In this document: positions 29,377-46,898 of the stretch, piece by piece
Layout of the letters: every line of letters starts with the position of its first letter
Numbering within the stretch: position 1 is the first letter of the stretch
NCBI RefSeq assembly: GCF_003002055.1
Contig: NZ_PVZF01000005.1
Coordinates: forward strand, 248,001-312,000
Length of the DNA stretch: 64,000 nucleotides
DNA from: Kineococcus rhizosphaerae
GTDB lineage: Bacteria; Actinomycetota; Actinomycetes; Actinomycetales; Kineococcaceae
Direction: 5' to 3'
The notes under the pieces: generated by a model
Seen by the model: the letters and a program-made list of their open reading frames with translations, nothing else
What the model was told of the DNA's origin: nothing
Database searches by the model: none
Position numbers and translations under genes: made by a program

Positions 29377-31350
29377 TCAGCCGGCGTGGACGCGCGGGCG
29401 CGTCGCCGGGTCCGGGTCGGCGCGGCGCAGCACCTCCCGGGTGACGGGGGCGACCTCCCCGACGCCGAGGAACAGGAACCGGACGATGTTCACGAGCGGG
29501 TTGCCCTCCGACCACTCGAACCACACGTCGGGCAGGACCCCCGTCTCGTCGCGCACGGCGAGCGCCACGGCGGCCACGGAGTTCGCGACGGCCGAGCTGC
29601 GGACGGTCAGGACGTGGTGGCCGAACCGCTCCTCGCCGTGGACGACCAGGTCGGTCTCGAAGTCGGACGCGTCGGCGACGGTCACCTCCAGGAACACGGC
29701 GGGTTCGTCGGCGGGGATGTGCTGGTCGCGGCGTTCGTCGTACATCTTCTCGTCGTACTCGGCCTCGTCGCGCGCGTCGGGCTCGTTGGCGATGACGTTC
29801 AGCGCTCCGCGGGCGGCGGCCTCGTCGAGGAACCGGCGTGCCGTGTCGTCGAACCGGACGCCGCTGGCGCGCAGCTCGAACGCCCGCAACGCCCGCGAGA
29901 CCAGCGACACGACCACGATCGCGGCGATGAAGCACGCCGCGATCTGCACCCCCTCGGGACGTTCGACGACGTTCGCGACGGTCGTGTAGACGAACACGAC
30001 CGTGACGACGGCGAAGAACGCGCGCGCCCCCTTCTGCCCGTGCCGGTGCGCCGACAACGTCACCGCGACGGTCGCGGACGTGATGAGAACCAGCACCCCG
30101 GTGGCGTAGGCCCCGCCCTGCTTGTCGACGTCGGCGTCGAACAGCCAGGTCACGAGGAACGCGACGGCCGTGAACACCAGCACCAGCGGGCGCACGGCCC
30201 GCGTCCACTGCGGCGCCATGCCGTACCGGGGCAGGTAGCGGGGCACGATGTTCAGCAGGCCCGCCATGGCCGACGCACCGGCGAACCACAGGATCGCGAT
30301 GGTCGACACGTCGTACGCCGTCCCGAACCCGTTGCCGAGGTACTCGTGCGCCAGGTACGCCAGCGCCCGGCCGTTGGCCGACCCGCCGGGCTGGAACTCC
30401 TTCGCGGGGATGAGGACGCTCGTCGCGAAGCTGGAGGCGAGCAGGAACGCGCTCATGACCAGGGCCGCGACGGTCAGCAGCGTCCGCGCGCCGGCGATCC
30501 GCTGCACCAGCCCCGGCCCCGACGAACTCCCCCGGATCTGCGGCATGACGAGCACGCCCGTCTCGAACCCCGACAGCCCCAGCGCCAGCTGCGGGAAGAC
30601 GATGAGCGCGGCCCCCACGATCGCGAACGGTGAACTGCCCTGCGCCAGCACGGCCTCCCACCAGCGGTGCACCGAGACGGGCTGGCCGACCACGTGGAGC
30701 ACGGCGTCGACGACCACGACGGCGTTGAGGGTCAGGAACGCCACGACGAGGACGACGGCGACGCCGATGGCCTCGGAGAAACCCCGCAGGAACACCGCGC
30801 CGAGCAGGGCCAGCAGGAACAGCGTGATGCCCAGCTGGTGGCCCTCGAGGAACTGCGGGACGTACGGGTTCTCCAGGGCGTGCTTGGTGGCGTCGGCCGC
30901 CGACAGGGTCATGGTGATGAGGAAGTCGGTCGCGGCGAACCCCAGCAGGGCCAGCACGAACAGCTTGCCGCCCCACCACGGCAGGACCTTCTCCAGCATG
31001 GCGATGGACCCCTCGCCGTGCGGGCTCTCCCGGGCCACGCGGCGGTAGACGGGCAGCGCGCCGAACAGGGTCACGAGGACGAGGACGAGCGTGGCGATGG
31101 GCGAGATGACGCCGGCGGCGAGGAAGGCGATGGCGGGCTGGTAGCCCAGGGTCGAGAAGTAGTCGACCCCCGTGAGGCACACGACCTTCCACCACGGGTG
31201 GCCCGCGTGCTCGCGACCCTGCTCGCCCTCGGGTTCCTCCGGCGGTCGACGGTGGGGGCCGGGGTGCTGGGCCCCGCCGCCGGCCGGGCGCTCGTCGAGG
31301 CCCTCCAGCAACCAGGAACGGGCCGACTCACGGGGTGTCACGCTCGTCAT
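29377..31350 (-). CDS. APC-superfamily permease with cytosolic C-terminal domain (possible potassium link)
   Basis: A 657-residue permease with about 12 transmembrane segments. The N-terminal motif [20 protein letters not shown] and the [12 protein letters not shown] loop define a large, uncharacterised actinobacterial and proteobacterial subgroup of amino-acid-permease-like proteins. After the last helix comes a soluble tail of about 220 residues. Substrate is unknown; the APC superfamily also contains K+ carriers such as KimA and KUP. Two copies of the repeat that precedes the kdp operon occur upstream (31394-31411), which points to KdpE control and hence to potassium; this is an inference. 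The ATG at 31350 has a weak GGTGG site. The longer open frame upstream is antisense to the next gene. Confidence 0.82.
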
Positions 31351-31393
31351 GGACCCACCGCCGCCGCGATCCGGCAACTCGACCCGCCGGGTC

Positions 31394-31411
31394 TTGACGC
31401 CTCCTTGACGC
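31394..31411 (-). promoter_or_regulatory. Two KdpE-box-like direct repeats before the APC permease
   Basis: On the plus strand TTGACGC occurs at 31394-31400 and again at 31405-31411, so the TGAC cores are 11 bases apart, one helical turn. The unit (GCGTCAAG on the gene's strand) and the spacing match the array before kdp. The sites lie about 45-60 bases upstream of the permease start. Confidence 0.6.
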
Positions 31412-31485
31412 GGTGTCACCCGTCCGCCGAAACTTTCCAGCGGCAACCACCGCACGACGGACCACCTCGACGGACCAGGACGACG

Positions 31486-32697
31486 ATGACCTCCGGCACC
31501 ACCACCCTCGACCGGCACGCCCTCAACCGCTGGCGAGGTGCCGTCACCGCCTGCTTCGCCATCGGCGGCGTCGCCCTGTCGACGTGGGGACCGCGACTGC
31601 CCGCGCTGCGCGCCGACCTCGACCTCGACACCGGCGGCCTCGGCGTCCTGCTCGCCGGGGTCACCGTCGGCTCCGTCGCCGGGCTGCTGGCCGCCGCCCC
31701 CGCCATCGCCCGCTTCGGCGCCCGCCGCGCGATCCCGGGCGTCGTCGTGCTCGTGGCGCTGGCCATCGCCGCGGTCGGGGTCGGCTCCGGGGTGTTCCAC
31801 TCCGTGCCGGCGGTGGCCGTCGCGTTCGTCGTCGCCGGGTTCTCCATCGGCTGCCTCGACGTGATGATCAACATCGACGGGGCCGCCGTCGAGGCCGCCG
31901 CCGGCCGGACGCTCATGCCGATGATGCACGCGGCCTGGTCCGGGGGTGCGGCCCTCGGGTCCGGCATCGGCGCGGCGTGCGCGGGGCTGGGGGTCTCCCC
32001 CACCGGCCAGTTCACCGGCGAGGCCGTCCTCCTGGTGCTGGTCGCCGGGTTCGTCGCGCGCTCCGTCCCGGTGGGCGCCCGCGCCGGCGAGGTCGCCCCG
32101 GAGGGGTCCCCGGGCCGGCGGGTGCTGACGTGGTTGCGCGGCTGGGCCGACCTGAAGCTGCTCCTCATCGGACTGGTCATGCTGGGCGCCGAACTCGGCG
32201 AGGGGTCGGCGAACAACTGGCTGACGCTGGCCGCCAAGGACGGGCACGGCCTGGCCGCCGCCACCGCCGCGCTGTTCTTCACGGCCTTCGCCGTCGCCGA
32301 GATGACCGCGCGCCTGCTCGGGGGCCCGCTCGTCGACCGGTTCGGGCGGGTCGCCACCGTGCGGGCCACGACGGCCCTCGGGATCGTCGGCGTCGCGCTG
32401 TTCGTCCTCGGCCGGCACCCGGCCCTCGTCCTGGTCGGGGTCCTGCTGTGGGCCGTGGGGGTGTCGATGGGTTTCCCCCTGGGCATGTCGGCGGCCGCGG
32501 CGAGCGGGTCGAACCCCGCGGCCCGCGTCAGCGTCGTGGCCTCCATCGGCTACTTCGCCAACCTCGCCGGCCCGCCCACCGTCGGGTTCGTGGCGCAGGG
32601 CACGGGGCTGCTGCCGGCGCTGTGGCTCATCGCGGTCGTCATGGTCGCGGGGTTCGCGGCCGCGGGCTCGATGCGCGTGACCACCCCGGCACGCTGA
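31486..32697 (+). CDS. MFS transporter (FucP/YbjJ-like)
   Basis: A 403-residue major facilitator with about 12 hydrophobic segments. Helix 1 reads [22 protein letters not shown], the GARRAIPG loop resembles motif A, and [19 protein letters not shown] is the helix 4-5 motif of the YbjJ/FucP-like group of sugar or unknown carriers; [13 protein letters not shown] follows. The substrate cannot be assigned. The ATG at 31486 has an AGGA site. It is divergent from the APC permease and is followed by the SWIM gene after 78 bases. Confidence 0.88.
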
Positions 32698-32775
32698 CGG
32701 AAGCACGCTGGGCCGTCCGGGTCGTCCCACCCGCGCCCACCCCCTCGTGTCCGACCCGGCCCCTACGGTCGCGCC

Positions 32776-34170
32776 GTGCCGAACGCGCTCACCTCCGCCG
32801 ACCCCACCCGCTCCGGGACCCGCCGGGTCTCCACGCTGACGCCCGACGGGTTGCTGCTGGCGACCGGACCCGGCACCGGCCCGACCGGCCCGGTGGCCGA
32901 CCCGTGGTTCTTCGAGGGGTCCGTCCGGCACCCGGCGGTCGCCGCCCGCGGGCTGCTCGCGGTCGCCGCGGTGGCCCGTACCCGTTGTGGGACACCGCGG
33001 ACGCGGACCTTCCACGACCCGGTCGTGACGGCCGACGGGACCGCGTTGCGGTTCGAGTCGTTCTCCGCCTGCGGCGGCGTCCACGCCCGGCTCGACCTGC
33101 TGCCCGACGGGCTGGACGCCGGTCTCGACGGTCCGACCGCCCAGCGCGGGACCACGAACGTCGACGTGAACGACCCCCTGCGCCGGGCGCTGGCCCTCGT
33201 CGGGGACGGGGACAGGATGCGTTTCGCCGTCGGGCCGCAGGAACTGCGGGTCACCACGGACGACGCCTCGATCGTCGAGCCGAAGGTCACCCTCCCGGCG
33301 CGCTGGGTCCGGGGTTTCGCCGAGGCCGCGATCTCGCTGGCCGGGATGGACCTGCGGGCCGAGCTGGCGCCGGCAGAGGCCCGCCGGTTCCTGCGCGATC
33401 TGCCGCGCGGGACGGGCCAGGACGTCCGCTGGCTGGAACCGGCCGGCCGCGGGCTGCGGGTGACCACGCGACCCGGCGCCGGCGCGGTGTGCCTGGCCGG
33501 TCCCCGGCGGCTCGAGACCCTGGAACCGCTGCTGCGGTGGGCGAGCGCCGTGCGCGTGCACTCGGCCCCCGTGACGGGCCGCGCCACCGCGAGCGCCTGG
33601 GAGGTCGACCTGCCCGGCGCCCGGTACACCCTGGTCCTGTCCCCCGAACCCTCACGGGGCTTCTCCGGCGAGGGAGGGGTCCTGGAGGCGCTCGCGGACG
33701 GCGGTGAGGACGCCGACGGAGACGCGCAGCGGGTCCTGGACCTGCTGTCGTGGGCGCCCGGGCTGCCCGCCGAGGACGTCGCCGACGCGCTGGGCCTGAC
33801 CGGCGCCCGGGTCCGCGCGGCCCTGGTCCGGCTGGGGACGTCGGGCCGGGTGGGCTACGACCTGGCGGCGAGCGCCTGGTTCCACCGGGAACTGCCCTAC
33901 GACTCCGGCCGCGCCGAGGCCGACAACCCCCGGCTGCGGGCCGCCCGCGCCCTGCTGGCCGAGGGCGCCGTGTCCGATCCGGTGGACGGTGTCGTGGTGG
34001 TCCACCGCCCCGACGGCGACCGGCACGTGCGCCGCACGGCCGACGGGTTCTCCTGCACCTGCCCGTGGTGGACGGCGTACGCGGGGAGTCGGGGACCGTG
34101 CAAGCACGTGCTGGCCGTGCAGGTCCGGGACCGCGCCGCGGTCGCGGCGGACCGGGCGGTCCAGGCGTGA
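32776..34170 (+). CDS. SWIM zinc-finger protein
   Basis: A 464-residue protein whose only recognisable domain is a SWIM zinc finger near residues 425-447 (FSCTCPWW, then [10 protein letters not shown], giving the CxC...CxH ligands). SWIM fingers bind DNA or partner proteins. The first 380 residues are unassigned, partly helical. The start GTG at 32776 stands exactly six bases after TACGGT, so the mRNA is leaderless. The stop overlaps the GTG of the DUF6493 gene (GTGA), so the two proteins are made together and probably act in one complex. This gene pair recurs in actinobacteria; its role is unknown. Confidence 0.82.
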
Positions 34171-36818
34171 GCGACCTCGCCGACGCCCTGCGGGAGGCCA
34201 TCGCCGGGCAGAGCCCGCGACGGGTGGCCGAACTGCTCGACGGGGTGCCCGAACGCGAGCGCCCGGCCCTGCGCGTCGTGCTGAAGGTGGACCGCGAGGG
34301 CCTGGGACGCCCGGCGTGGGCGGTCGCCGCCGCCGGCCTGGAGGGCGGGGCCGCGGCGGTGGCCCGCCGGTTGCGGACGGCGTGGATGCCCGGGGGGCAT
34401 CAGCCTGTCGAGGGTTCGACGAGTTCGTTCTCGTGGTGGGCCCCGGGGTGGGTCGTCGTCGCCCGTGTCCTGCTGCAGCGGCAGGTCGACTGGTTGCCGG
34501 ACCTCGTCGTCCGGCTCGCCGACGCGGAGGTGCGCGGCTGGGGGGACAGCCGCCACGTGCTGACCGAGCGGTTGCGGCGGGAGCTGTCGCTGCCCCGGCC
34601 GACGGGTGCCGGGTACCTGCGGTGGGCCGTGGGCCAGTGGTTCGGCGTGCCCTGGCAGGAGGACGGGCTCGACCGGGCCGAACGGCTGCGCCGCGAACCG
34701 GACCCGACCGCGCTGGTGGTGGCCGTCCTGGCCGTGCCCGAGATCGGTGTCGAACTGCAGATCACCCGTGCGGCTCCCACCGAGGAGTGGTGGTCCCCCG
34801 GGTGGCGCGAGGCCCTGCTCGACCTCGTCGCGGACGGCACCCTGGCCCGTGACCCGCTGCTGGACGCCCTGACCGCGGCGCTCGCGCTCGGGGGGTCCGG
34901 TCGGCACCAGAACTCCTTGGCGCACCTGCTCGGTGCCCTCGACCCCACACCGGAGGAGACAGCCGCGCGGTTCCGCGATCTGTGCGCGCTGCTGCCCGAG
35001 GCGGCGGGAACGGTCGCCGACGTCGTGCTGAGGCTGGGCCGGGCGGCGGTGGGCGCCGGTGCGGTCTCGGTCGCCGAAGCCGTCGAGACGACCGCGGAGG
35101 CGCTGCGCCGCCGGGAGAAGGGGGTGGTGCGGGCGCACCTGCGGTGGCTGGCGGGGCTGCCCGCGCAGGACCCCGCGCTGCGCGACGTCGTGCTGCCCGC
35201 CCTCTCTGAGGCCTTCGGCCACGAGCACCACGACCTGGCACAGCTGGCGTGGGCGGCGGTGGAGCGGCTGCTGCCCGGTGCCGCCGAGACCGTGCGGGCC
35301 GACCTGCTGGACCGGGCAGCGGAACTGCCGCGCGACCTGCAGGACGAGGCGGTGCGCGTCCTGGGTGGGAGCCCCGGCGTGACCGTCCCGGGCGAGCCGG
35401 TCGCCGCCGCACCTCCGGGCGAACCTGCCACCGCCCCACCGGCGGCCCCGCACCCGCCCCGGGTGCAGGACCTGGCCGACCTGGTCGTGGCGATCACCGA
35501 GCACACGCGACGCGGGCGCCCGGCCGACGCCGAACGGGTGCTGGACGGTCTGGCGCGGTTCGGGGCCCAGCACCTCCAGGCGCTGGCCGCGGCGCTGGCC
35601 CCGGCCGCCGAGAGCTTCAGCCTGGGGTGGGAGCGGGACGCGCACTTCGCGCCGTACCCGTTCCTGGCCGCGGCCACCCGGCGGCCGGGGTCGCCGCGCT
35701 GGCGCGGGGAGAAGCCGGGGCGCCCAGGTCCGGTCCCGCCGGGCGGGACCGGGATCCTCGCCCTGCGGGCCCGGGAGGTGGTGGAGCGGGTGCGGGCCGG
35801 GGTCGCCGCCCCGCTGCTCGCCTTCCCCGACACGGCCCTCGGTCACGTCGACCCGGGGCGGGTGCTGGCGGACCTGCGCCGCGCGGCCGCCACCGGCGTC
35901 GACCCCGGCCCGCTGGACCTGGAGCAGACCTGGCTGCGCTACCCCAGGGACGTGGCCGACGACGAGCACCTCGCCCGGCTGCGCGCGGTCGGCACCCCGG
36001 CCGCGGACCGGCTCGCGCAGCACCTGTCGCCCGGCGGCCTGCCGGAGGCGGTGGTCCAGCCCGTCCCCGTCGCCCTGCAGGGCAGGCGGTACGGCTACCA
36101 GGACACCTCCGAGCACCAGGACTGGCCGCTGGTGTCCCTGACGGGTTCGGTCGTGGACACCCCGCTGGTCGAGCGGGGCTTCGACGGGGCGGACCTGCCC
36201 GAGCGCGTCGTCCGGGAGCGGTGGTCGGGCGGGCTGGCCGCGCTCACCACGCTGGCCGTGCTGCCCTCCCACCGCGAGGTCGCCGCCGGCGAACTCCTCC
36301 CGCCCCTCGTCGACCTCGAGCACCGGCACGACGCTGCGACCACCACCACGCTCGCGCTGCTGCCGGAGGCCGGCGGTCCGACTGGCCGCGCCACCCACCT
36401 GGCCCTGGCCTACGGACTGCTCAGCGCCGACGAACGGGTCCGGCTCGGCGCGGTCGACGCCGTGCACGGCTTCGCCGTCCGCGGCGGACTCGACGCCACC
36501 GCGGCAGGCGCGGCGCTGGGTGCGGTGCTGACGCTGGACGAGGCCAAGCTCGTCCGGCTCACCCGGGCGCTGGCGCCACTGGCCCACGACGACCGGCGCG
36601 GGGTCCGGGAGTTCACCGCCCGGTACCTGCTGGCCGCCCTCGCCCCCGTGGTCCCGTTGCGGCGCAACGGGTTGTCCGACCTGCTGGCCCTTGCCGCCGA
36701 CGCCGCGCACGGCACCGGACCACACCGGCCGGTCCCCGGCCTAGCCGACCTCGCCACCTCCGGCGGGCGCAGCCGGAACGTCACCGAGGCCCGGCGGGTC
36801 CTGGCCGGACTGGCGTGA
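34167..36818 (+). CDS. DUF6493-like large helical-repeat protein
   Basis: An 883-residue, Ala/Leu/Arg-rich protein of repeated helices of the HEAT/ARM style, for example DLADALREAIAGQSPRRVAELL at the N-terminus and LVRLTRALAPLAHDD, FTARYLLAALAP near the end. A proline/alanine-rich linker near residue 415 divides it into two lobes. No catalytic motif is visible. It matches the type of proteins that accompany SWIM zinc-finger proteins in actinobacteria (DUF6493), assigned on size, composition and position. It starts in a GTGA overlap with the SWIM gene, arguing for a stable two-protein assembly, possibly nucleic-acid-associated. Confidence 0.75.
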   Translation: MSDLADALREAIAGQSPRRVAELLDGVPERERPALRVVLKVDREGLGRPAWAVAAAGLEGGAAAVARRLRTAWMPGGHQPVEGSTSSFSWWAPGWVVVARVLLQRQVDWLPDLVVRLADAEVRGWGDSRHVLTERLRRELSLPRPTGAGYLRWAVGQWFGVPWQEDGLDRAERLRREPDPTALVVAVLAVPEIGVELQITRAAPTEEWWSPGWREALLDLVADGTLARDPLLDALTAALALGGSGRHQNSLAHLLGALDPTPEETAARFRDLCALLPEAAGTVADVVLRLGRAAVGAGAVSVAEAVETTAEALRRREKGVVRAHLRWLAGLPAQDPALRDVVLPALSEAFGHEHHDLAQLAWAAVERLLPGAAETVRADLLDRAAELPRDLQDEAVRVLGGSPGVTVPGEPVAAAPPGEPATAPPAAPHPPRVQDLADLVVAITEHTRRGRPADAERVLDGLARFGAQHLQALAAALAPAAESFSLGWERDAHFAPYPFLAAATRRPGSPRWRGEKPGRPGPVPPGGTGILALRAREVVERVRAGVAAPLLAFPDTALGHVDPGRVLADLRRAAATGVDPGPLDLEQTWLRYPRDVADDEHLARLRAVGTPAADRLAQHLSPGGLPEAVVQPVPVALQGRRYGYQDTSEHQDWPLVSLTGSVVDTPLVERGFDGADLPERVVRERWSGGLAALTTLAVLPSHREVAAGELLPPLVDLEHRHDAATTTTLALLPEAGGPTGRATHLALAYGLLSADERVRLGAVDAVHGFAVRGGLDATAAGAALGAVLTLDEAKLVRLTRALAPLAHDDRRGVREFTARYLLAALAPVVPLRRNGLSDLLALAADAAHGTGPHRPVPGLADLATSGGRSRNVTEARRVLAGLA

Positions 36819-36843
36819 ACGGCCGGGCGAGCGGTCGGGTCGC

Positions 36844-37308
36844 TCAGGGACGGGGCGCCCGGACCAGGAACACGTCGACGGGGTCCTCGTGGTCGAGCAC
36901 GAACCCGTGCCGCTCGTACAGGCGCCGGGCGTCGCTGCGCTGCAGGACGTCGAGGCGCACCGTGGTCCCGCTCGCGTCGGCGGCGCGCGTCACCGCGCTC
37001 AGCGCGGCCGTCCCCACGCCCCGGCCCTGCACCGGGACGTCCAGGTAGAAGTGCTCGAGCCACACGCCGTCGGGGGCCGGGCGCAGGGCCAGGGACCCGA
37101 CGGGGCCGGCGGGCCCGCGCAGGACCTGCGTGCGCTCGGGCGCGAACCCCGACAGGAACCGTTCGCGCACCCGCACGTCGTCGTAGCGGCCGAGCCGTTC
37201 CAGGCTCGGCCGCAGGACGGTGGCCCGCAGCTCGGCGAGGGCGGGCCCGTCCTCCGGCCGGGCCGGTGACCACGTGAGCGGAGGTGACGGCGGCAGCGTG
37301 ACGAGCAC
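36844..37308 (-). CDS. GNAT-family N-acetyltransferase
   Basis: A roughly 154-residue GNAT protein with the family core: motif D/A strand VWLEHFYLDVPVQGRGVGTA (acetyl-CoA binding QGRGVG), helix ALSAVTRAAD and motif B region RLYERHGFVLDHED. It should acetylate a small molecule or protein amine using acetyl-CoA; the acceptor is unknown. The start is uncertain: a GTG at 37308 has TTGCCT exactly six bases before it, while another GTG at 37338 would add ten residues without a ribosome site. It is convergent with the DUF6493 gene. Confidence 0.85.
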   Translation of the reverse strand: MLVTLPPSPPLTWSPARPEDGPALAELRATVLRPSLERLGRYDDVRVRERFLSGFAPERTQVLRGPAGPVGSLALRPAPDGVWLEHFYLDVPVQGRGVGTAALSAVTRAADASGTTVRLDVLQRSDARRLYERHGFVLDHEDPVDVFLVRAPRP

Positions 37309-37417
37309 GGACCCAGGCAACCAGACACCCGTGCCCACGACCCGACCGGGTACGTGTCACGCCTCGAGGCACCGGTGACGCCCCGGCTCCCACCAGCGGC
37401 GGCCCTGCGCCCGCCCG

Positions 37418-38122
37418 CTAGCTGTACTGCCCCCGGACCCGGCCGGCAGCCCGCGTCCCGCTCGTCGTCGACCGGGTGCGGTGCCGGTACCAGCCGTGCG
37501 CGAGGAGGGCGCAGCCGAGCCCGATGACCATGGCGGCCCCGACGTCGCTGACGTGGTGCATCCCGCGGTACAGGCGCGCGAACGCGACCAGCAGGGGCAC
37601 GAGGAGGCACGCGATGACCGTCAGCCGCCGCAGCCAGGTCCGGTGGACCTGCAGGGCGACGAGCGCGAACGCGACGTAGAGGGCGGTGGACGCACCGGTG
37701 TGCCCGCTGGGGTAGCTCGTGGTCGGGGGTGAGACGTCGAGCTTGGCCACGGACGGCCGGTCCCGGCCGACGAGGCTGGAGACGGTGGCGAAGATGACCG
37801 CCTGCAACGCGATCGCGATCGCGGGGACGGCGGCGAGGCGCCAGTCCCTGGTCCGCCAGAGCAGCAGCCCCGCCACGACCAGGCAGACGCCGATGACGGT
37901 CTCGGTGTTGCCCAGGTGCGACCAGACGAGCGTGACGGTGTTCCAGCCGGGGGTCCGGTCCGCGGCCAGTTCGTCGTTCACGGCCTCCTCGGCGTGGGAG
38001 AGCCCGGCCAGCGGTCCGGTCAGGGCGAGGCCGAAGCCCGCGATCAGCCCCCAGAGGACGACGCCGGGGGCGACGGCTCGGACGAGGAGGTCACGGCCGT
38101 CGGCCGGACGAATGCGGTCCAC
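37418..38122 (-). CDS. PAP2-family membrane phosphatase (copy 1)
   Basis: A 234-residue type-2 phosphatidic-acid phosphatase. The three catalytic motifs are present: KLDVSP-preceding VGRDRPSVAK (KxxxxxxRP-like), PSGHTGAS and RLYRGMHHVSDV. Six hydrophobic helices place it in the membrane; it may act on lipid or polyprenyl phosphates. The GTG start at 38122 is supported by TACGCT exactly six bases upstream (38129-38134), even though this puts the start 79 bases inside the preceding PAP2 gene. The two neighbours are both 234 residues long and are probably an old tandem duplication. Confidence 0.85.
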   Translation of the reverse strand: MDRIRPADGRDLLVRAVAPGVVLWGLIAGFGLALTGPLAGLSHAEEAVNDELAADRTPGWNTVTLVWSHLGNTETVIGVCLVVAGLLLWRTRDWRLAAVPAIAIALQAVIFATVSSLVGRDRPSVAKLDVSPPTTSYPSGHTGASTALYVAFALVALQVHRTWLRRLTVIACLLVPLLVAFARLYRGMHHVSDVGAAMVIGLGCALLAHGWYRHRTRSTTSGTRAAGRVRGQYS

Positions 38123-38748
38123 GACGCGAGCGTAAGACCCAGCCCGATCAGGTGTCCGGCGATCACGTCGGACGGGAAGTGCGCCCCGAGGAGCACCCGG
38201 TCGAGGTCGACCAGGAGCACCGCGAGCACCGCGGCGGCCACCGCGATCCGGCGTCGGGCCGGCGACATCAGCGGCCACGCGAGGACGAGCAGGACGGCGG
38301 CGGCGGTGGTGGCGTTGAGGGCGTGGCCGGAGGGGAAGGAGTACCCGTGCGGGTGCGCCAGCGGGGAGTCCAGGACGGGCCGGGCCCGTTTCACGACGAG
38401 CTTGGCGAGAGCCCCCAGACCCCAGCCGGCCATCATGGTCACGAAGGCCCAGGTCGCGCGCCTGCGGGCCCCGGTCGCCACGGCGACCCGCACCACGACC
38501 AGCGTCGAGGCCGCGTAGACCACCACCGGTTGGGTCACCTCCTGGACGACGACCAGGGGCGCGACCAGGTGAGCAGCCCGCGCGACGTCCGTCGCCGCTC
38601 TGATCACGCCGTCGTCGAGGGCCACCACGGCGTCCGACCGCTGGCGCACCGCGAACGTCAGCAGGACCAGCGGTGTCCCGAACAGCGTCATCGCGACGAG
38701 GGAGCGCGCCGCGCGCCGGGCCAGGCGCCCCGCTGCGGCGGAGTTCAC
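38044..38748 (-). CDS. PAP2-family membrane phosphatase (copy 2)
   Basis: A 234-residue PAP2 enzyme. Motifs KLVVKRARPVLDSP, FPSGHALNAT and RVLLGAHFPSDVIAGH are all present, with six predicted helices. The C-terminal tail is Ser/Pro-rich (SSSEPSPPASSSGG). Its GTG at 38748 overlaps the stop of a 24-codon leaderless ORF upstream, so translation is probably coupled to it. Its 3' end overlaps the start of the next PAP2 gene by 79 bases. Physiological substrates could be undecaprenyl-pyrophosphate or phosphatidate; this cannot be settled from sequence. Confidence 0.85.
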   Translation of the reverse strand: MNSAAAGRLARRAARSLVAMTLFGTPLVLLTFAVRQRSDAVVALDDGVIRAATDVARAAHLVAPLVVVQEVTQPVVVYAASTLVVVRVAVATGARRRATWAFVTMMAGWGLGALAKLVVKRARPVLDSPLAHPHGYSFPSGHALNATTAAAVLLVLAWPLMSPARRRIAVAAAVLAVLLVDLDRVLLGAHFPSDVIAGHLIGLGLTLASWTAFVRPTAVTSSSEPSPPASSSGG

Positions 38749-38819
38749 CGTCCCGGCCGGGAGGACGTCGGCGGGGCCGGGTCGAGCCCGCAGAGGCGAG
38801 GCACCTCGGGAAGGGGCAC
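38745..38819 (-). CDS. Short leaderless ORF coupled to the PAP2 gene
   Basis: A 24-codon ORF (VPLPEVPRLCGLDPAPP...) beginning at a GTG that lies exactly six bases after TACGTT (38826-38831 on this strand), the leaderless pattern seen elsewhere in the window. Its TGA overlaps the GTG of the PAP2 gene (GTGA at 38745-38748). The arrangement mirrors the short ORF before glpK. The peptide is proline/arginine-rich, with no recognisable family; it may serve to load ribosomes onto the phosphatase gene. Confidence 0.45.
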   Translation of the reverse strand: MPLPEVPRLCGLDPAPPTSSRPGR

Positions 38820-38887
38820 GCCCGGAACGTAACACGCCGGTGCGCGGAGCCTCGGTCCCGCGGCGTCGACGGCCGCGGTCCCGCCCC

Positions 38888-38903
38888 CACCGCTGTCGCG
38901 GTG
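38888..38903 (-). terminator. Hairpin downstream of kdpE
   Basis: CACCGC-TGTC-GCGGTG forms a perfect 6-base stem with a tetraloop, 28 bases after the kdpE stop. It is a candidate end of the kdp transcript. Confidence 0.4.
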
Positions 38904-38930
38904 CGGAACGGTCACGCCCGTCCGGACGCG

Positions 38931-39608
38931 TCACATCTCGAACCGGTACCCCATCCCGGGTTCGGTGATGAGGTGCACGGGCGCGCCGGGGACCTTCTCC
39001 AGCTTGCGCCGCAACTGCCCGACGTAGACGCGCAGGTAGTTCGTCTCCCGCCCGTAGTTCGGGCCCCAGACCTCCTGCAGCAGCTGGGTCTGGCTCACGA
39101 GCCGGCCCGCGTTGGTCACGAGGACCTGCAGCAGGTGCCACTCGGTCGGGGTGAGCTTCACGGGCTCGCCGTCGCGGGTGACGGTGCGGCGGGCGAGGTC
39201 GATGTGCAGGTCGCCCACGTCGACGACGTCGGGGGCGGCGTCGCTCACCGCGCCCCGGCGCACCGCGGCGCGCAACCGCGCCAGCAGCACGTCCATCGCG
39301 AAGGGTTTCGTGACGTAGTCGTCGGCGCCGGCGTCGAGGGCCTCGACGGCGTCGGTCGAGGCGGTGCGGGCCGTCAGCACGATGATCGGCACGGGGCTCC
39401 AGCCGCGGATCCCGGCGATGACCTCCAGCCCGTCGAGGTCGGGCAGGCCCAGGTCGAGCAGGACGACGTCGGGGTGGGTCGCGGCGGCCGCCTCCAGCGC
39501 CGAGGCCCCGTCGGCGGCGACGGTGACGTCCCACCCGCGCGCGCTGAGGTTGATCGACAACGCCCGCCGCAGGCCCGGCTCGTCGTCGACCACGAGCACT
39601 CGGCTCAT
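38931..39608 (-). CDS. kdpE: KdpE response regulator
   Basis: A 225-residue OmpR/PhoB-type regulator. The receiver domain has the acidic pair DD (residues 8-9), phosphoacceptor Asp52 (VVLLDLGLPD), Thr in VLTAR and Lys in YVTKPF; the C-terminal winged helix contains LTPTEWHLLQVLVTNAGRLV and the ending ITEPGMGYRFEM. Phosphorylated KdpE activates kdp transcription at low potassium or high osmolarity. The ATG overlaps the kdpD stop (ATGA), so it is the last gene of a coupled operon. The regularly spaced repeats at 46783 are its probable target. Confidence 0.95.
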   Translation of the reverse strand: MSRVLVVDDEPGLRRALSINLSARGWDVTVAADGASALEAAAATHPDVVLLDLGLPDLDGLEVIAGIRGWSPVPIIVLTARTASTDAVEALDAGADDYVTKPFAMDVLLARLRAAVRRGAVSDAAPDVVDVGDLHIDLARRTVTRDGEPVKLTPTEWHLLQVLVTNAGRLVSQTQLLQEVWGPNYGRETNYLRVYVGQLRRKLEKVPGAPVHLITEPGMGYRFEM

Positions 39609-42166
39609 GCCGGCCGGACCTCCGCGAGTTCGTGGGTGTGACCGGCCAACGGTAGGTCCAGCACCATCGTCAGGCCGCCACCGGGGGTGTCCTCGGCCTG
39701 CAGGCGGCCCCCGACGGCCTCGGCGAGCCCGCGGGCGACGGCCAGGCCCAGCCCGAGCCCGGCCGTCGAGCGGTCGCCGAGGCGCTGGAACGGGGTGAAG
39801 GCGCGTTCCTTGGCGGCGCCGGGCAGGCCGGGGCCGTGGTCGACGACGAGCAGCCGCACGCTCTGGTGGCCGTCCTCGGTGGCGACGACCGCCTCGACCT
39901 GCACGCCCGTCCCGCCGTGCCGGACGGCGTTCTGCACGAGGTTGGCCACGACCCGCTGCAGCAGGCCCGGGTCGGTGGAGACCGGCGGCAGGTCCACCGG
40001 GACGAGCGAGCGCACCCCGGGCAGGTCGCGCACCGCGGCGTGCACGACCTCGTCGAGGTCGACGACGACGAGGTGGGGTTCGACGACGCCGCTGCGCACG
40101 CGGGTCAGGTCGAGCAGGTCGTCGATGAGGCCCTGCAGGCGGTCGGCGGAGTTGCCCACCTCGGCCAGCAGTTCGTCGCGCACCTCCTCGGGCAGTTCGA
40201 TGTCCTTGGCCCGCAGGCTGTCCAACGAGGCCTTGAGGGTCGCCAGCGGGGTCCGCAGGTCGTGGGAGACGGCCGTCAGCAGCGCCCCGCGGACGGCGTC
40301 GCCCTCCTCGAGCCGGCGCACCTGCGCGGCCTCGGCGCGCAGCCGCTGCTTCTGCCGGATCGCGGCGACCTGCGCGGCGAACGCCTCCAGGACCCGCCGG
40401 TCGTCGGCGACGAGGAGGCGGCCGCGCAGGACCAGGCACGTCAGCTCGTCGACGACCACCTCGGCGTCGGCGTCGGTGGGCTGGGTGCACACCGGGTCGC
40501 CCGTGGCGGCGGCCACCGTCCACGGCGAGCGGACGTCGGTGCGCTCGAGCAGCGTGACGGAGTCGACGGCGAACGTCTCGCGGGTGTGCCGCAGCGCCTC
40601 GGTCAGCGGGTCGGCGGCCAGCAGCGCCGTGCGGGTCAGCACGGACAGGGCCTCGGACTCGGCCCGGGACCGGTGCGCGTCCCGCGTGCGCCGGGCCGCG
40701 GTGTCGACGGTGCTGGACACCGCCAGGGCCACGAGCAGGAACACCGCGAGGGCGACGGCGTTGGCGGGCTGGGCGATCGTGAACTGGTGGACGGGCTGGG
40801 TGAAGAACCAGTTCACGGCCAGGCCCGCGACCAGGGCCGCGGCCAGCGCGGGCAGCACCCCGCCGACGAGGGCGGCCGCGACGACGACCACGAGGAAGGC
40901 CATGAGGTCGGTCGACAGGTCCTGGTGCGGCAGCGCGGCGAGGAGGCCGGTGACCGCCAGGGGCCCGGCCAGGGCCACGACCCACCCCAGCAGCCGCCGG
41001 GAACCGGGCAGCGCCGCGCCCGCGCGCCGGGGCAGCGCGAAGGGGCGGGCCTGCTGGTCGTGGGTGACGACGAGGACGTCGATCGCGCCCGCCCCGCGCA
41101 CGACGCCGTCCCCGACGCTGCGCCGGAACAGCGACGCGAGGGGCCGGTGCCGGCTGGCGCCGACGACGATCTGGGAGGCGTTGACGCCGCGGGCGAACTC
41201 CAGCAGGGACGTCGCGACGTCCTCGCCGACCACCTGGTGGTAGGTGCCGCCGAGGGTCTCGACGAGTGCGCGCTGCTCGGCCAGCCGGGCGGGGGAACTG
41301 CGGACGAGCCCGTCGCCGCGCGCGACGTGGACGGCGTGCAGTTCCCCACCGGCGCCCCGGCCGGCCAGCCGGGCGGCGCGGCGCACCAGCGTCGAGCCCT
41401 CCGCTCCCCCGGTCAGCGCGACGACGACGCGTTCGCGCGCGGGCCACGTCGCCTCGATGCCCTGCTGGGCGCGGTAGCGCTCCAGGCCCTCGTCGACGCG
41501 GTCGGCCAGCCACAGCAGCGCCAGTTCGCGCAGCGCCGTGAGGTTGCCGGTGCGGAAGTAGTTCGACAGGGCGGCGTCGACGCGTTCGGGGGCGTAGACG
41601 TTGCCGTGAGACAGCCTGCGCTGCAGCGCCTCGGGGGTCATGTCGACGAGCTGCACCTGGTCGGCCGAGCGCAGCACGGCGTCCGGGATCGTCTCGCGCT
41701 GTTCGATGCCGGTGATGTGCTCGACGACGTCGTTGAGGGACTCCAGGTGCTGGATGTTCACCGTCGAGACGACGTCGACGCCGGCGTCCAGGAGGTGCTG
41801 GACGTCCTGCCACCGCTTGGGCCGTTCCGAGCCCGGCGCGTTCGTGTGGGCCAGCTCGTCGACGACCACGATCTCCGGCCGCCGGCGCAGGACCGCGTCC
41901 ACGTCGAGCTCACCGACCTCCAGCCCGCGGTGCTCGACGATCCGCCGCGGCAGGACCTCCAGCCCCGCCAGCAGCGCCTCGGTCCGTTCCCGGTGGTGGC
42001 ACTCGACGAGCCCGACGACGACGTCCGTGCCGCGCGCGAGGCGGCGGTGGGCCTCGTCGAGCGCGGCGAAGGTCTTGCCGACGCCGGGGGCGGCTCCGAG
42101 GAACACCCGCAGCCGCCCCCGCCGCACGAGGTCCGGCGCAGGGCTCACCTCCCCAGTGTGCGGCAC
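39605..42166 (-). CDS. kdpD: KdpD osmosensitive potassium sensor kinase
   Basis: An 853-residue sensor with the full KdpD layout: N-terminal KdpD domain with Walker A GAAPGVGKT (residues 24-32) and DELAHTNAPG, a Usp-like domain (VVALTGGAEGSTLVRRAARLA, about 250-360), four clustered transmembrane helices around 400-500 (starting LLGWVVALAGPLAVTGLLA), a GAF-like region, and a histidine kinase core with SHDLRTPLATL (His near 632), an N-box NLVQNAVRHG and G-box GLGLGLAVARGLAEA. It senses intracellular potassium and phosphorylates KdpE. The GTG at 42166 begins two bases after the kdpC stop; a second in-frame GTG six codons later is possible. Confidence 0.94.
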   Translation of the reverse strand: MPHTGEVSPAPDLVRRGRLRVFLGAAPGVGKTFAALDEAHRRLARGTDVVVGLVECHHRERTEALLAGLEVLPRRIVEHRGLEVGELDVDAVLRRRPEIVVVDELAHTNAPGSERPKRWQDVQHLLDAGVDVVSTVNIQHLESLNDVVEHITGIEQRETIPDAVLRSADQVQLVDMTPEALQRRLSHGNVYAPERVDAALSNYFRTGNLTALRELALLWLADRVDEGLERYRAQQGIEATWPARERVVVALTGGAEGSTLVRRAARLAGRGAGGELHAVHVARGDGLVRSSPARLAEQRALVETLGGTYHQVVGEDVATSLLEFARGVNASQIVVGASRHRPLASLFRRSVGDGVVRGAGAIDVLVVTHDQQARPFALPRRAGAALPGSRRLLGWVVALAGPLAVTGLLAALPHQDLSTDLMAFLVVVVAAALVGGVLPALAAALVAGLAVNWFFTQPVHQFTIAQPANAVALAVFLLVALAVSSTVDTAARRTRDAHRSRAESEALSVLTRTALLAADPLTEALRHTRETFAVDSVTLLERTDVRSPWTVAAATGDPVCTQPTDADAEVVVDELTCLVLRGRLLVADDRRVLEAFAAQVAAIRQKQRLRAEAAQVRRLEEGDAVRGALLTAVSHDLRTPLATLKASLDSLRAKDIELPEEVRDELLAEVGNSADRLQGLIDDLLDLTRVRSGVVEPHLVVVDLDEVVHAAVRDLPGVRSLVPVDLPPVSTDPGLLQRVVANLVQNAVRHGGTGVQVEAVVATEDGHQSVRLLVVDHGPGLPGAAKERAFTPFQRLGDRSTAGLGLGLAVARGLAEAVGGRLQAEDTPGGGLTMVLDLPLAGHTHELAEVRPA

Positions 42167-42168
42167 GT

Positions 42169-42762
42169 TCAGGACGCCAGGGCCTGCAGCGCGAGGTTGA
42201 GCTCCAGGACGTTCACGGTGGGCTCGCCCAGGAACCCGAGCTGGCGGCCCGCGGTGTGCTGCGCGACGAGGTCGGCCACCTGCTGCTCGCTCAGCCCGCG
42301 GGCCCCCGCGACCCGGGCGACCTGCTGGCGGGCGTACTCCGGGGAGATGTCGGGGTCGAGCCCGGAACCGGAGGCGGTCAGGGCGTCGGGGGCCACGTCG
42401 GCGGGGTTCGTCCCGTCGGCCGCGGCGACGGCGGCGCGCCGCTCCTCGACGGCCTTCAGCAGGTCCGGGTTGTTCGGGCCCAGGTTCGAGGCACCCGAGG
42501 AGGTCGGGTCGTAGCCGTCCTTCCCGGCCGCCGACGGGCGCGGCCAGAACCACTGGTCGCCGGTGAAGGCCTGGCCGATGATCCGGGACCCGACCGCGGT
42601 CCCGCCGGAGCTGACGATCTGGCCGTCGGCGCGGCCGGGGGTGAGCCGGCCGATGCCGAAGACCGCCAGCGGGTACAGGACCCCGAGGACGACGGTGGCG
42701 GCGATCAGCAGGAGCAGACCGGTGCGGGCCTGCCGCACGAGGTTGGCGAAGGTGAGGGACAT
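42169..42762 (-). CDS. kdpC: Potassium-transporting ATPase subunit C
   Basis: A 197-residue KdpC. A single N-terminal membrane helix (LLLLIAATVVLGVLYPLAVFG) is followed by the family motifs QAFTGDQWFWPRPSAAG, SGASNLGPNNPDLL, SGLDPDISPEYA and ELNLAL near the end. KdpC assembles with KdpA/B and tunes ATP affinity. Length is normal. The ATG at 42762 lies five bases after the kdpB stop, and the stop is two bases before kdpD. Confidence 0.95.
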   Translation of the reverse strand: MSLTFANLVRQARTGLLLLIAATVVLGVLYPLAVFGIGRLTPGRADGQIVSSGGTAVGSRIIGQAFTGDQWFWPRPSAAGKDGYDPTSSGASNLGPNNPDLLKAVEERRAAVAAADGTNPADVAPDALTASGSGLDPDISPEYARQQVARVAGARGLSEQQVADLVAQHTAGRQLGFLGEPTVNVLELNLALQALAS

Positions 42763-42767
42763 TCTGA

Positions 42768-44873
42768 TCAGCCGATTCCGGGGATCTGGGAGACGAGCAG
42801 GTCGATGAGCTTGATGCCGATGAAGGGCACGACGACGCCCCCGAGGCCGTAGACCCACAGGTTGCGCCGCAGCAGGGCCGCGGCGCTGGAGGGCCGGTAC
42901 CGCACCCCGCGCAGGGCCAGCGGGATGAGGGCGACGATGACGAGGGCGTTGAACACGACGGCCGAGACGATGGCGCTCTCGGGGGTCGCCAGCCGCATGA
43001 CGTTCAGGGCGTCGAGGCCGGGGAACGTCGTGACGAACATCGCCGGGATGATGGCGAAGTACTTGGCGATGTCGTTGGCGATGGAGAACGTCGTCAGCGC
43101 CCCGCGGGTGATGAGCAGCTGCTTGCCGATCTCGACGATCTCGATGAGCTTGGTCGGGTTGGAGTCCAGGTCGACCATGTTCCCGGCCTCCTTGGCCGCG
43201 GTCGTCCCGGTGTTCATCGCGACCCCGACGTCGGCCTGGGCCAGGGCCGGGGCGTCGTTCGTGCCGTCGCCCATCATCGCGACCAGCCGGCCGCCGGACT
43301 GCTCGCGCCGGATGAGTTCCAGCTTGTCCTCGGGGGTGGCCTCGGCGAGCACGTCGTCGACCCCGGCCTCCACGGCGATGGCGCGTGCGGTCCGCTCGTT
43401 GTCGCCGGTCACCATGACGGTGCGGATCCCCATGGCGCGCAGCTGCTCGAACCGTTCGCGCATGCCCTCCTTGACGACGTCCTTGAGGTGGATGACGCCC
43501 AGCACCCGGGCGTGGTCCCTGCCGTTCGCCGTGACGTTCTCGGCGACGACCAGCGGGGTCCCGCCCGCGGTGGAGATGTCCTCCACGACCTGACCGACCT
43601 CGGCGGGCACCTCACCCCCGAGGGTGCGCACCCAGTGCGTCGCGGCGGCCGCGGCGCCCTTGCGGATCTCGCGGCTGCCCTGACCGGTCGACAGGTCCAC
43701 CCCCGACATCCGGGTCTGGGCGGTGAACGGCACGAACACGGCCCCGGGCAGTTCACCCTCGGAGCGGGCCCGCAGCCCGAACTGCTCCTTGACGAGGACG
43801 ACCACGGACCGCCCCTCGGGGGTGGCGTCGGCCAGGCTCGACAGCTGCGCGGCGTCGGCCAGGACCGACAGCGTCACGCCGGGGGCGGCGACGAGCTCGT
43901 GCGCCTGCCGGTTCCCGAGGGTGATGGTCCCGGTCTTGTCCAGCAGCAGGGTCCCGACGTCCCCGGCGGCCTCGACGGCCCGGCCGGACATCGCCAGGAC
44001 GTTGCGCTGGACGAGCCGGTCCATGCCGGCGATGCCGATGGCGGACAGCAGCGCGCCGATGGTGGTGGGGATGAGGCAGACCAGCAGCGCGACGAGGACG
44101 ACGAGGCTCTGGGGCTTGCCCGAGTAGATCGCCATGGGCTGCAGCGTGACCACGGCCAGCAGGAACACCAGGGTCAGGCTGGCGAGCAGGATGTTCAGCG
44201 CGATCTCGTTGGGGGTGCGCTGGCGGGCGGACCCCTCGACGAGCGCGATCATCCGGTCGACGAAGCTCTCGCCGGGTTTGGCGGAGATGCGGACCACGAT
44301 GCGGTCGGACAGGACGGTCGTGCCGCCGGTGACGGCGCTGCGGTCGCCGCCGGACTCCCGGATGACGGGGGCGGACTCGCCGGTGATGGCCGACTCGTCG
44401 ACGCTGGCGACGCCCTCGACGACGTCCCCGTCGCCGGGGACGGTCTCCCCCGCCTCGACGACGACGAGGTCACCGACGCGCAGCTGCGCCGAGGAGACCC
44501 GCACCTCGTCGCGGCCGTGGTCCAGGCGGCGGGCGACGGTCTCGGTGCTGACCTTGCGCAGCGAGGCGGCCTGCGCCCGGCCGCGCCCCTCGGCGACGGC
44601 CTCGGCGAGGTTGGCGAACAGGACGGTGATCCACAGCCAGGCGACGATGACCCAGGCGAACACGGACGGGTCGGTGACGGCCAGGACCGTGGTGAGGACG
44701 GCGCCGAGACCGACGACGAACATGACGGGGGTCTTGACCAGGTGCCGCGGGTCGAGCTTGCGGAACGCGTCCGGCAGGGACTGGACGAGCTGGCGGGGGC
44801 TGAACGCACCGCTGGCGACGCGGCGCGGGGCCGCCGGTTCCTGCGTGTCGGGGATCGGGGTGAGGGTGGTCAC
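42768..44873 (-). CDS. kdpB: Potassium-transporting P-type ATPase subunit B
   Basis: A 701-residue P-type ATPase with all KdpB hallmarks: the actuator TGES in [10 protein letters not shown], phosphorylation site [13 protein letters not shown] (Asp near 311), nucleotide-binding [14 protein letters not shown], hinge [12 protein letters not shown] and [18 protein letters not shown]. It hydrolyses ATP to power potassium uptake by KdpA. The GTG start at 44873 overlaps the kdpA stop (GTGA). The N-terminal 20 residues are basic/proline-rich as usual for the family. Confidence 0.96.
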
Positions 44874-46543
44874 GACTGGGCTCCAGAGACGGCCTCGGCG
44901 ATCGGGCCGAGGGCCAGGGCGGGGAAGAACGTCAGGGCCGTCACGACCACCACGACGGCCAGGTGCATCCCGGCGAACGTCGGGGTGCGCGTCGGCAGGG
45001 TCCCGGCGGTGGCGGCCGCGGGTTTCTGCGCCGCGAACGCGCCGGCCAGGGCGAGGACGAACACCATCGGCAGGAAGCGGCCGAGGTAGATCGCCAGCCC
45101 GAGGGCGGTGTTGTAGAACGGGGTGTTCGCGCTGAGCCCGGCGAAGGCGGAGCCGTTGTTGTTGGCGGCCGAGGCGAACGCGTAGAGCATCTCCGTCAGA
45201 CCGTGCGGGCCGGAGTTCAGCAGCGCAGAGCGGGTGTCGGCGTCCGACAGCGCGATGGCCGACCCGGTGAGCAGGACGCCGGGGGTGACGAGGATGTACA
45301 GCGCGGCGTAGGTGATCTCCTTCTGCCGGATGCTCTTGCCCAGGTACTCCGGCGTGCGCCCGACCATCAGCCCGGCGACGAACACCGTGATGATCGCCAG
45401 CACGAGCATCCCGTACAGACCCGAGCCGACACCGCCGGGGGTGACCTCGCCCATCATCATGTTGAGCATGACCGTGCCGCCGCCGAGCGGGGTGTAGCTG
45501 TCGTGGAACGAGTTCACCGCACCGGTCGAGGTGGACGTCGTCGCCGTGGCGAACAACGTCGAGGCCCACTCGCCGAACCGGGTCTCCTTGCCCTCCATCG
45601 CCGAGCCGACGGCCTGCGGGACGGCGCCGTAGCCGCGCGTCTCCGACCACGTCGTGACGGCCAGGGAGACGGTGAAGACGGCGCCCATCACCGCCAGGAT
45701 CGCGTTGCCCTGGCGGCGGTCGCCCACCATGGTCCCGTACGTGCGGGGCAGGCTGAACGGGATGACGAGGATGAGCAGGATCTCGAAGAGGTTCGAGAAG
45801 GGGGTCGGGTTCTCGAAGGGGTGCGCGGAGTTCGCGTTGAAGAACCCGCCGCCGTTGGTCCCCAGCTCCTTGATGACCTCCTGGGAGGCGATCGGACCGC
45901 CGACGATCGTCTGCGTGCCGCCCGCCAGCGTCGTGTACGTGGTGCCGCCGGAGAAGTTCTGCACCACGCCCGTCAGCAGCAGCGCGACCGCGCCGAGCAC
46001 CGAGAGCGGCAGCAGGATGCGCAGCGTGGCGCGGGTCAGGTCGACCCAGAAGTTGCCGATGGTTCCGCCGGCCCGGGAGACGAGGCCGCGCACCAGGGCC
46101 ACCGCGACGGCGAGGCCCACCGCGGCGGACAGGAAGTTCTGCACGGCCAGGCCGGCCATCTGGACCAGGTGCCCGACGGCGGACTCCCCGGAGTAGGACT
46201 GCCAGTTCGTGTTGCCCACGAAGGAGACGGCCGTGTTCCACGCCTGGGTGGGTTCCATGCCCGCCATGCCCAGCGACAGCGGCAGGAAGTGCTGCAGGCG
46301 CAGGAACGCGTACAGGAACAGGATCGAGACGGTCGAGAAACCCAGCACCCCGAGGGCGTAGGTGGGCCAGCGGACCTCGGCGTCCCCGTCGACCCGCAGC
46401 ACCCGGTACAGGCCGCGCTCGACGCGCAGGTGGCGGGCACCGGTGAAGGTGCGGGCCATGAAGTCGCCCAGCGGGACGTGCACCGCCGCCAGGACGACGA
46501 CGAGCAGCCCGATCTGCAGGAGCCCTGCGGTCGCGTCGCTCAT
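44870..46543 (-). CDS. kdpA: Potassium-transporting ATPase subunit A
   Basis: A 557-residue channel-like subunit with ten transmembrane segments and the four selectivity-loop regions of Kdp[54 protein letters not shown] and [20 protein letters not shown]. It forms the potassium-selective path of the KdpFABC pump. The ATG at 46543 overlaps the kdpF stop (ATGA). The protein is normal in length and intact. Confidence 0.96.
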
Positions 46544-46632
46544 CAGAACTTCTCCGGACGCAGCAGGGCGTACAGCAGGTAGCCGGCGGTCACGACGGCG
46601 AGCACGAGGCCCACCGCCGCCGTGGCGCTCAC
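46543..46632 (-). CDS. kdpF: KdpF small stabilising subunit
   Basis: A 29-residue single-helix peptide, [17 protein letters not shown] and then [12 protein letters not shown], with the typical ending RPEKF/PERF. KdpF stabilises the KdpABC complex in the membrane. It starts at a GTG at 46632 preceded by GGAGCG, and overlaps both the upstream small ORF (GTGA) and kdpA (ATGA). Confidence 0.9.
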
Positions 46633-46712
46633 CGGCGCTCCAGCGCGCGGACCAGCAGGCCGCCGAGCGCTGCGAGGGCGAGGGTCAGGGCGATCAGCCC
46701 GACGTCGAGCAC
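46629..46712 (-). CDS. 27-residue membrane peptide at the head of the kdp operon
   Basis: A short ORF on the minus strand, encoding [18 protein letters not shown] and then LLVRALERR, that is one membrane helix with a basic C-terminus. Its TGA overlaps the kdpF start (GTGA), and a GGAG site lies just upstream of its GTG. Similar tiny membrane ORFs are commonly found before kdpF in actinobacteria, so it is probably genuine. It may be an additional accessory subunit of the pump, or a coupling leader. It is too short for most gene finders. Confidence 0.65.
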
Positions 46713-46782
46713 GAGGACTCCAGGGGGAGGTGGATCGGTGAACGTCTCCACCACACCACCGGACCGCAGGTCCACCGGCCGT

Positions 46783-46832
46783 CCTGACGCGTCCTTGACG
46801 CCGTCCTGACGCGCCTTGACGGGAGCCTGACG
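46783..46832 (-). promoter_or_regulatory. Array of five KdpE-box-like direct repeats
   Basis: CCTGACGCG/CCTTGACG units recur with TGAC cores at 46785, 46796, 46807, 46817 and 46828, that is spacings of 11, 11, 10 and 11 bases. Helically phased direct repeats are the usual binding layout of OmpR/PhoB-type regulators. The array lies about 70-120 bases upstream of the first ORF of the kdp operon, an activator position, and KdpE is the obvious protein to bind. The region 46713-46782 holds the core promoter, but I cannot assign -35/-10 with confidence. Confidence 0.75.
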
Positions 46833-46898
46833 CGGGTTCGGCGCCGTTCACCGCGCGGCGTCGGCCCCGCGGCCCCACAGTTCGCGCCCGAGGTGCGC

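Follow-up and report, generated by a model that had tools for sequence, protein, structure and literature searches.

In the bacterium Kineococcus rhizosphaerae, a permease gene near the kdp genes is preceded by the same KdpE-type repeats as the kdp operon itself. Our analysis of a 64,000-nucleotide stretch of its genome (contig NZ_PVZF01000005.1, positions 248,001 to 312,000; hereafter the window) suggests that this permease (P0001, 29377..31350, minus strand, 657 aa) is probably a distant, so far unrecognised KimA/KUP-like potassium/proton importer belonging to the KdpE regulon. The proposal builds on a shared promoter box, the conservation of this box, gene linkage, the nearest fold, and conserved ion-site residues, all of which were computed.

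The box of the permease, GCGTCAAGGAGGCGTCAAGACC, occupies positions 31390..31411 on the minus strand, which is the coding strand of the permease, and lies 39 bases upstream of the ATG at 31350. It contains two 11-base repeats, compared with five units spaced 10-11 bases (46780..46833, minus strand) upstream of kdp; an earlier note on this DNA, prepared from the sequence alone, had described these TGACG-type units, and they are found where it placed them. The pattern CGTCARG-N4-CGTCARG, allowing for one mismatch, has four matches in the window, all of which are exact and confined to the permease and kdp sites, while 0.33 matches are expected and none of 100 shuffles reached four. Throughout the 5.61 Mb genome, the exact pair occurs seven times at four places: the permease, kdp (three occurrences), a PrsW-type open reading frame (ORF), and a small ORF located before an Orn/DAP/Arg decarboxylase gene (two occurrences). 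Read backwards, the pattern has no occurrence in the genome. The PrsW-type place overlaps a coding end and was set aside as a probable chance match. The decarboxylase place looks real: a four-unit tandem of the 11-base type (L006 1490-1533; G000:C7 near 62874) precedes the small ORF and the decarboxylase gene, and a similar tandem stands ahead of a small ORF of similar appearance, judged by eye, in another Kineococcus genome (G001; L045 near 1501).

The layout of both boxes is that of a footprinted KdpE site. The minimal KdpE site of Mycobacterium smegmatis is given as CCGTAAAGAAACCATCAAGGCC, based on footprinting and gel shift experiments, and the KdpE target described for this species is kdpFABC (PMC5401905); the M. 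smegmatis site and the permease and kdp boxes have in common a [GA]T[CA]AAG core that is repeated after 11 bases. In the window, a gene for a transporter of the predicted proton-coupled type carries the box as well. A 22-base matrix was derived from the M. smegmatis site together with 37 upstream regions of kdp, with thresholds taken from a Markov null. The training regions comprise 30 class-wide kdp regions, hand-picked from permease-bearing genomes, and seven from Kineococcus, and box calls within them are circular. The permease site scored 31.5, which is the highest value in the 64 kb though the site was absent from the training set, and the only sites scoring above 14 were this one and three overlapping sites at kdp.

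Conservation of the box was followed at two levels. Among 11 Kineococcus genomes, five (G000, which is the genome studied here, G001, G002, G006, and G009) contain a kdp-type orthologue of the permease with at least 79% identity, and the box pair is kept before all five. The Kineococcus kdp upstream regions carry the box in seven of eight readable cases; of the nine kdpA loci, one was unreadable at the right place (L067) and one had no box (L068), leaving the seven used in the matrix. A further congener, G008, encodes a KdpE with 83% identity and has neither a kdpA match nor a permease match. In this genome, the box CGTCAAGGACGCGTCAAG stands before a TrkH-family potassium transporter gene (L043 near 1501, G008:C51:138726; PF02386 E 2.7e-58; TIGR00933 E 3.4e-88, 296.4 bits against a cut-off of 331.15). 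Taken with the permease and kdp boxes, this places the same box ahead of three kinds of transporter, two of which are established potassium systems.

At the wider level, 27 of 70 class-wide permease upstream regions carry a box above the 99% level of the null (1% expected), as do 5/7 Kineococcus upstreams and 6/16 further relatives; one of these six (L026) shares its upstream with a divergent kdp region. The 70 regions derive from 71 permeases without that of K. rhizosphaerae, and three of them are short (202, 164, and 101 bases); the 71 permeases, in turn, leave out five fragment places (two in G152, two in G259, and one at G091:C3) and come from 64 of 66 genomes. The Kineococcus set leaves out L035 (contig edge) and L036 (fragment), and the further relatives are 16 of 19 loci, without L010 (same genome as G006), L027, and L028 (both with short upstreams). 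Four of the upstreams are shared with a divergent kdp region; once they are removed, 23/66 remain above the threshold and fall into seven families besides Kineococcus. Removing G067 in addition, where the permease upstream faces a KimA-like gene that precedes kdpA, leaves 22/65. With the same matrix, none of 20 amino-acid permease upstreams passes the 99% threshold. These upstreams replaced those of KimA as the negative control because 4/18 of the latter (18 of 20 loci) were themselves above the 99% level; at L199, a nearly exact M. smegmatis KdpE site lies in reverse orientation ~102 bases upstream of the match to a KimA homologue. Spacing in the 70 upstreams was likewise specific: the strict unit pair occurs on the forward strand at a spacing of 11 only (4/70), with none at other spacings from 7 to 25, and on the reverse strand at a spacing of 11 in 15/70, with two or fewer at any other spacing in this range. 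The expectation that the repeat would precede orthologous permeases thus holds for Kineococcus and for the seven other families; it does not hold universally, as discussed below.

The permease is also linked to kdp by gene order. In a class-wide sample of 296 genomes, the permease was found in 66, kdpA in 142, and KdpD in 161, and at least 20 of the 71 permeases have kdpA or kdpD at a distance of up to 20 kb, compared with a rough chance estimate of ~0.8 (0.0112 per gene). Such proximity counts are lower bounds and the underlying flags incomplete: G191 has kdpA, and G269, G028, G047, and G065 have a KdpD match. Arrangements vary: the permease can come immediately after kdpE or immediately ahead of kdpD, precede kdpA, or be oriented divergently to kdp; kdpE lies directly upstream of the permease in G001, G002, G006, Sinomonas humi, and G269. 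A KdpE relative adjoins the permease in G269 and G229, neither of which has kdpA. Co-occurrence points the same way, since kdpA is present in 53/64 permease genomes versus 89/232 others (odds ratio 7.7, with shared ancestry ignored). On plasmid 3 of Deinococcus deserti (L189 8887-12197), a TrkH-family gene follows the permease after five bases, and both are oriented divergently to a gene pair for a histidine kinase and a response regulator. Three side observations concern these neighbourhoods. In G067 (C1:7975224-7981467), a KimA-like gene with 38% identity sits between the divergent permease and kdpA, so that three potassium-type transporters form one cluster. In G006, the kdpDE-permease genes (C112) are on a different contig from kdpA (C1), and in G009 a KdpE with 90% identity is found near the permease and a second one, with 64%, near kdpA.

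What kind of protein the permease might be is not apparent from family models. P0001 has no Pfam or NCBIfam match at E 0.001, 17 aligned family members gave only chance-level Pfam matches (best E 0.13), and three relatives had no NCBIfam match at E 10. Given that KimA, the KUP family symporter of Bacillus subtilis (PDB 6S3K, 8B70, 8B71), could not be detected directly by sequence, fold and profile-profile comparisons were used. An AlphaFold model based on the 17 sequences (pLDDT 70.5) consists of a helical membrane part and a C-terminal soluble domain, and its top three Foldseek matches in the PDB were all KimA (E 5.4e-12 to 3.3e-10), with ApcT behind (1.0e-7). On this moderate model, the permease appears to combine a LeuT-type membrane domain with a C-terminal soluble domain, as does KimA. 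In profile comparisons, the permease family matched KimA plus 19 actinobacterial homologues with probabilities of 95.9% (local) and 97.8% (global), and four KimA homologues with 96.5% and 98.2%; hhalign against KimA as a single sequence gave 44% (25.6% global) with E263 misplaced. The two proteins share ~14-20% identity, a likeness detectable only by profile or fold comparison, and the same genome carries a separate KimA with 40% identity to the B. subtilis protein.

The residues of the ion sites are retained for the most part. The alignment pairs KimA D36 with D63 of the permease, Y43 with Y70, D117 with D142, T121 with T146, S125 with S150, T230 with S260, E233 with E263, and Y377 with Y415. 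D36, Y43, T121, S125, E233, and Y377 are identical in all 17 permeases and D117 in 16 of them, and D36, Y43, E233, and Y377 are also identical in 20/20 KimA sequences. T230 is replaced by serine throughout the permease family, and the tunnel positions N237, S320, and Q324 are not retained. In KimA, D36A/N, Y43A, and E233A/Q abolish uptake, Y377A strongly lowers affinity, and T230A is harmless; E233 is assigned to proton coupling (PMC6994465). Similarity extends to Kup/HAK/KT transporters (PF02705), which have a D-x6-Y in transmembrane helix 1 (TM1) and a G-E-G motif in common with the permease. The permease motif HGEGSIAML (30994-31020, minus strand) aligns with DGEGGIMAL of Kup, hinting at a shared KUP signature, in an alignment that is not significant as a whole. 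As none of the 17 members has a PF02705 match at E 10 and the profile probability against Kup is very low (see below), the permease was not filed as a Kup/HAK/KT transporter proper.

Proteins of this family were found in Actinomycetota, Deinococcota, Acidobacteriota, and Planctomycetota, and plasmid records name them amino acid transporter, APC family permease, or hypothetical protein. We consider it likely, with somewhat more reserve than for the single gene, that they form an entire branch of KimA/KUP-type potassium/proton symporters that has so far escaped recognition, and that KdpE controls many of its actinobacterial members. Among the titles and abstracts that searches of open-licence literature on KdpE or kdp returned, we found neither a KUP-type or other proton-coupled transporter as a KdpE target nor this family described as a potassium carrier. 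Unlike KimA, the permease has a KdpE-type box and lacks an Rfam match: a c-di-AMP riboswitch, considered as an alternative means of control, was not found in the window or in 20 permease-family upstream regions.

A number of observations weigh against these proposals, some of them concerning the protein. A phmmer search of P0001 against the PDB returned nothing, and a profile of the 17 sequences returned only thioredoxin (E >=0.43) and did not find KimA. The AlphaFold model is weak: its TM-score against KimA is 0.50 at an rmsd of 15-16, and the pLDDT stays below 50 in the regions of D63, Y70, and E263 (residues 1-82 and 251-280). The profile probabilities stem from single comparisons with thin alignments; the permease profile reaches only 0.1-0.5% against three Kup sequences, and in control comparisons KimA itself matched Kup with 92.5-94.9% and PF00324 permeases with 89.9-92.9%. 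That KimA matches both Kup and amino-acid permeases indicates one broad superfamily in which KimA is the bridge.

The remaining points of this kind concern regulation. The Kineococcus paralogues with 55-58% identity have no box in either of two readable cases. In the class-wide set, 43/70 permease upstreams fall below the 99% threshold, including all 11 of genus g47 (one with 202 bases only), and the named Streptomyces relatives L012-L014 have no box even at the 95% level. The strict pair is present in 11/30 class-wide kdp upstreams, and a looser core in 22/30, from which we conclude that the box drifts between clades. Of 639 natural 640-base windows, 19 pass the 99% level; these comprise six permease upstreams, the permease and kdp sites described above, one kdpA upstream (Sinomonas humi), two pattern-fetched loci, and eight others, and the latter eight correspond approximately to the nominal rate. 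The reversed pairs (15/70) are mostly located ~120-160 bases before the match start and 11 of them belong to family f26; with the pair on the opposite strand, activation is not a given in these cases. Finally, 11/64 permease-bearing genomes lack kdpA, and five of the six plasmid neighbourhoods opened, all but that of D. deserti, contain no annotated potassium transporter.

The alternative that fares best, which we nonetheless consider unlikely, holds that the permease belongs to the KdpE regulon but carries a different cargo, such as an anion or osmolyte, or that it exports potassium. It could draw on the next Foldseek matches, which are amino-acid transporters and cation-chloride cotransporters, on the reversed boxes just described, and on the plasmid annotations, most of which read amino acid transporter. 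However, the residues of both the potassium and the proton site of KimA are kept in the permease, and the permease profile matches KimA and not the PF00324 permeases (0.1-0.2%). Amino-acid permeases of the APC type (PF00324, ApcT, AdiC) share the same broad fold and differ in TM1: the glycine-rich TM1 (GGAIGTGLF type) of six compared amino-acid permeases is absent from the permease. Combined with the missing Pfam match, these features led us to reject an assignment as an APC amino-acid permease.

It is also improbable, to our mind, that the boxes are bound by an OmpR-family regulator other than KdpE. Half-site styles are common to OmpR-type regulators, and the tandem before the small ORF and the decarboxylase gene is of the same type without a known link to potassium. 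In addition, three genomes (G012, G291, and G229) have boxes and no PF02702 match for KdpD. Against this stands that each of the three encodes a KdpE relative (57-60% identity), that the site layout is the one footprinted for KdpE in M. smegmatis, and that some variants of the box, as judged by eye, recur in both promoters of one genome, for example the GTCAAC unit in G110 and G142. KdpE is encoded in 17 of the 18 genomes asked (E 1e-55 or better), and the sole genome without it, G004, holds only a permease fragment with stops.

Two further possibilities concern the permease promoter itself, and both appear very improbable. In K. rhizosphaerae, the box sits in a 135-base gap shared with a divergent MFS gene (start at 31486; PF07690 E 2.1e-13) and might serve this gene instead; yet G001, G002, and G006 (K. 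rubinsiae) retain the pair before the permease although the gene directly upstream there is kdpE, not the MFS gene, which argues that the box belongs to the permease. That the pair is a functionless leftover of a former kdpE-permease operon, an idea invited by the relatives in which the permease directly follows kdpE, fits poorly with its survival in G000 and G009, where genes now separate the permease from kdpE, and with its presence in genomes that have the permease outside the 20-kb neighbourhood of kdp.

The kdp genes of the window are all encoded on the minus strand. Downstream of the five KdpE-type units lie kdpF (46543..46632; 29 aa, read directly from the sequence), kdpA (44870..46543; TIGR00680 E 1.2e-201, PF03814 E 9.2e-227), and kdpB (42768..44873, start inferred; TIGR01497 E 3.4e-300), followed by kdpD (39605..42166, start inferred; PF02702 match at 41495-42124, G000:C5:289495-290124) and kdpE (38931..39608); kdpC would be expected between kdpB and kdpD. 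The kdpE gene encodes an OmpR-type response regulator with Response_reg and Trans_reg_C domains, whose best NCBIfam model is KdpE (E 2.8e-72), with 242.8 bits and thus below the curated cut-off of 325. A hydrophobic ORF of 27 aa (46629-46712, minus strand) overlaps the start of kdpF and, by eye, looks conserved in Kineococcus kdp regions.

In Kdp systems, KdpD phosphorylates KdpE under potassium scarcity. Applied to K. rhizosphaerae, low potassium would lead KdpD to phosphorylate KdpE, which may then bind the 11-base direct repeats before kdpFABC and before the permease gene and presumably switch on both; the cell would thereby gain an ATP-driven pump together with a putative proton-driven potassium importer. 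The earlier note had proposed that KdpE may control this permease and that an unassigned subgroup of APC type may take part in potassium transport, and both ideas gain in silico support from the footprinted-site layout, the conservation before orthologues, the repeated adjacency to kdpDE or kdpFABC, the TrkH box in a congener without kdpA, and the invariant KimA residues. Promoter repeats and gene neighbourhoods are what the permease has in common with the KdpDE-KdpFABC regulon.

These results provide a testable function for a widespread group of transporters that sequence searches had left unplaced. An inventory of potassium transporters in Streptomyces venezuelae, for which TransportDB and BLAST were used, names two close homologues of KimA alongside Kdp, four channels, and two antiporters; no group like the permease appears in it, and the species may lack the gene (PMC10117811). 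If correct, our proposal would widen the KdpE regulon from a pump to a proton-coupled importer, and the potassium-limitation regulon would become a two-engine system with one ATP-driven and one proton-driven component. It could also help to explain growth at low potassium where kdpFABC is absent; in such genomes, KdpDE would be able to control TrkH or a KUP-like carrier all the same.

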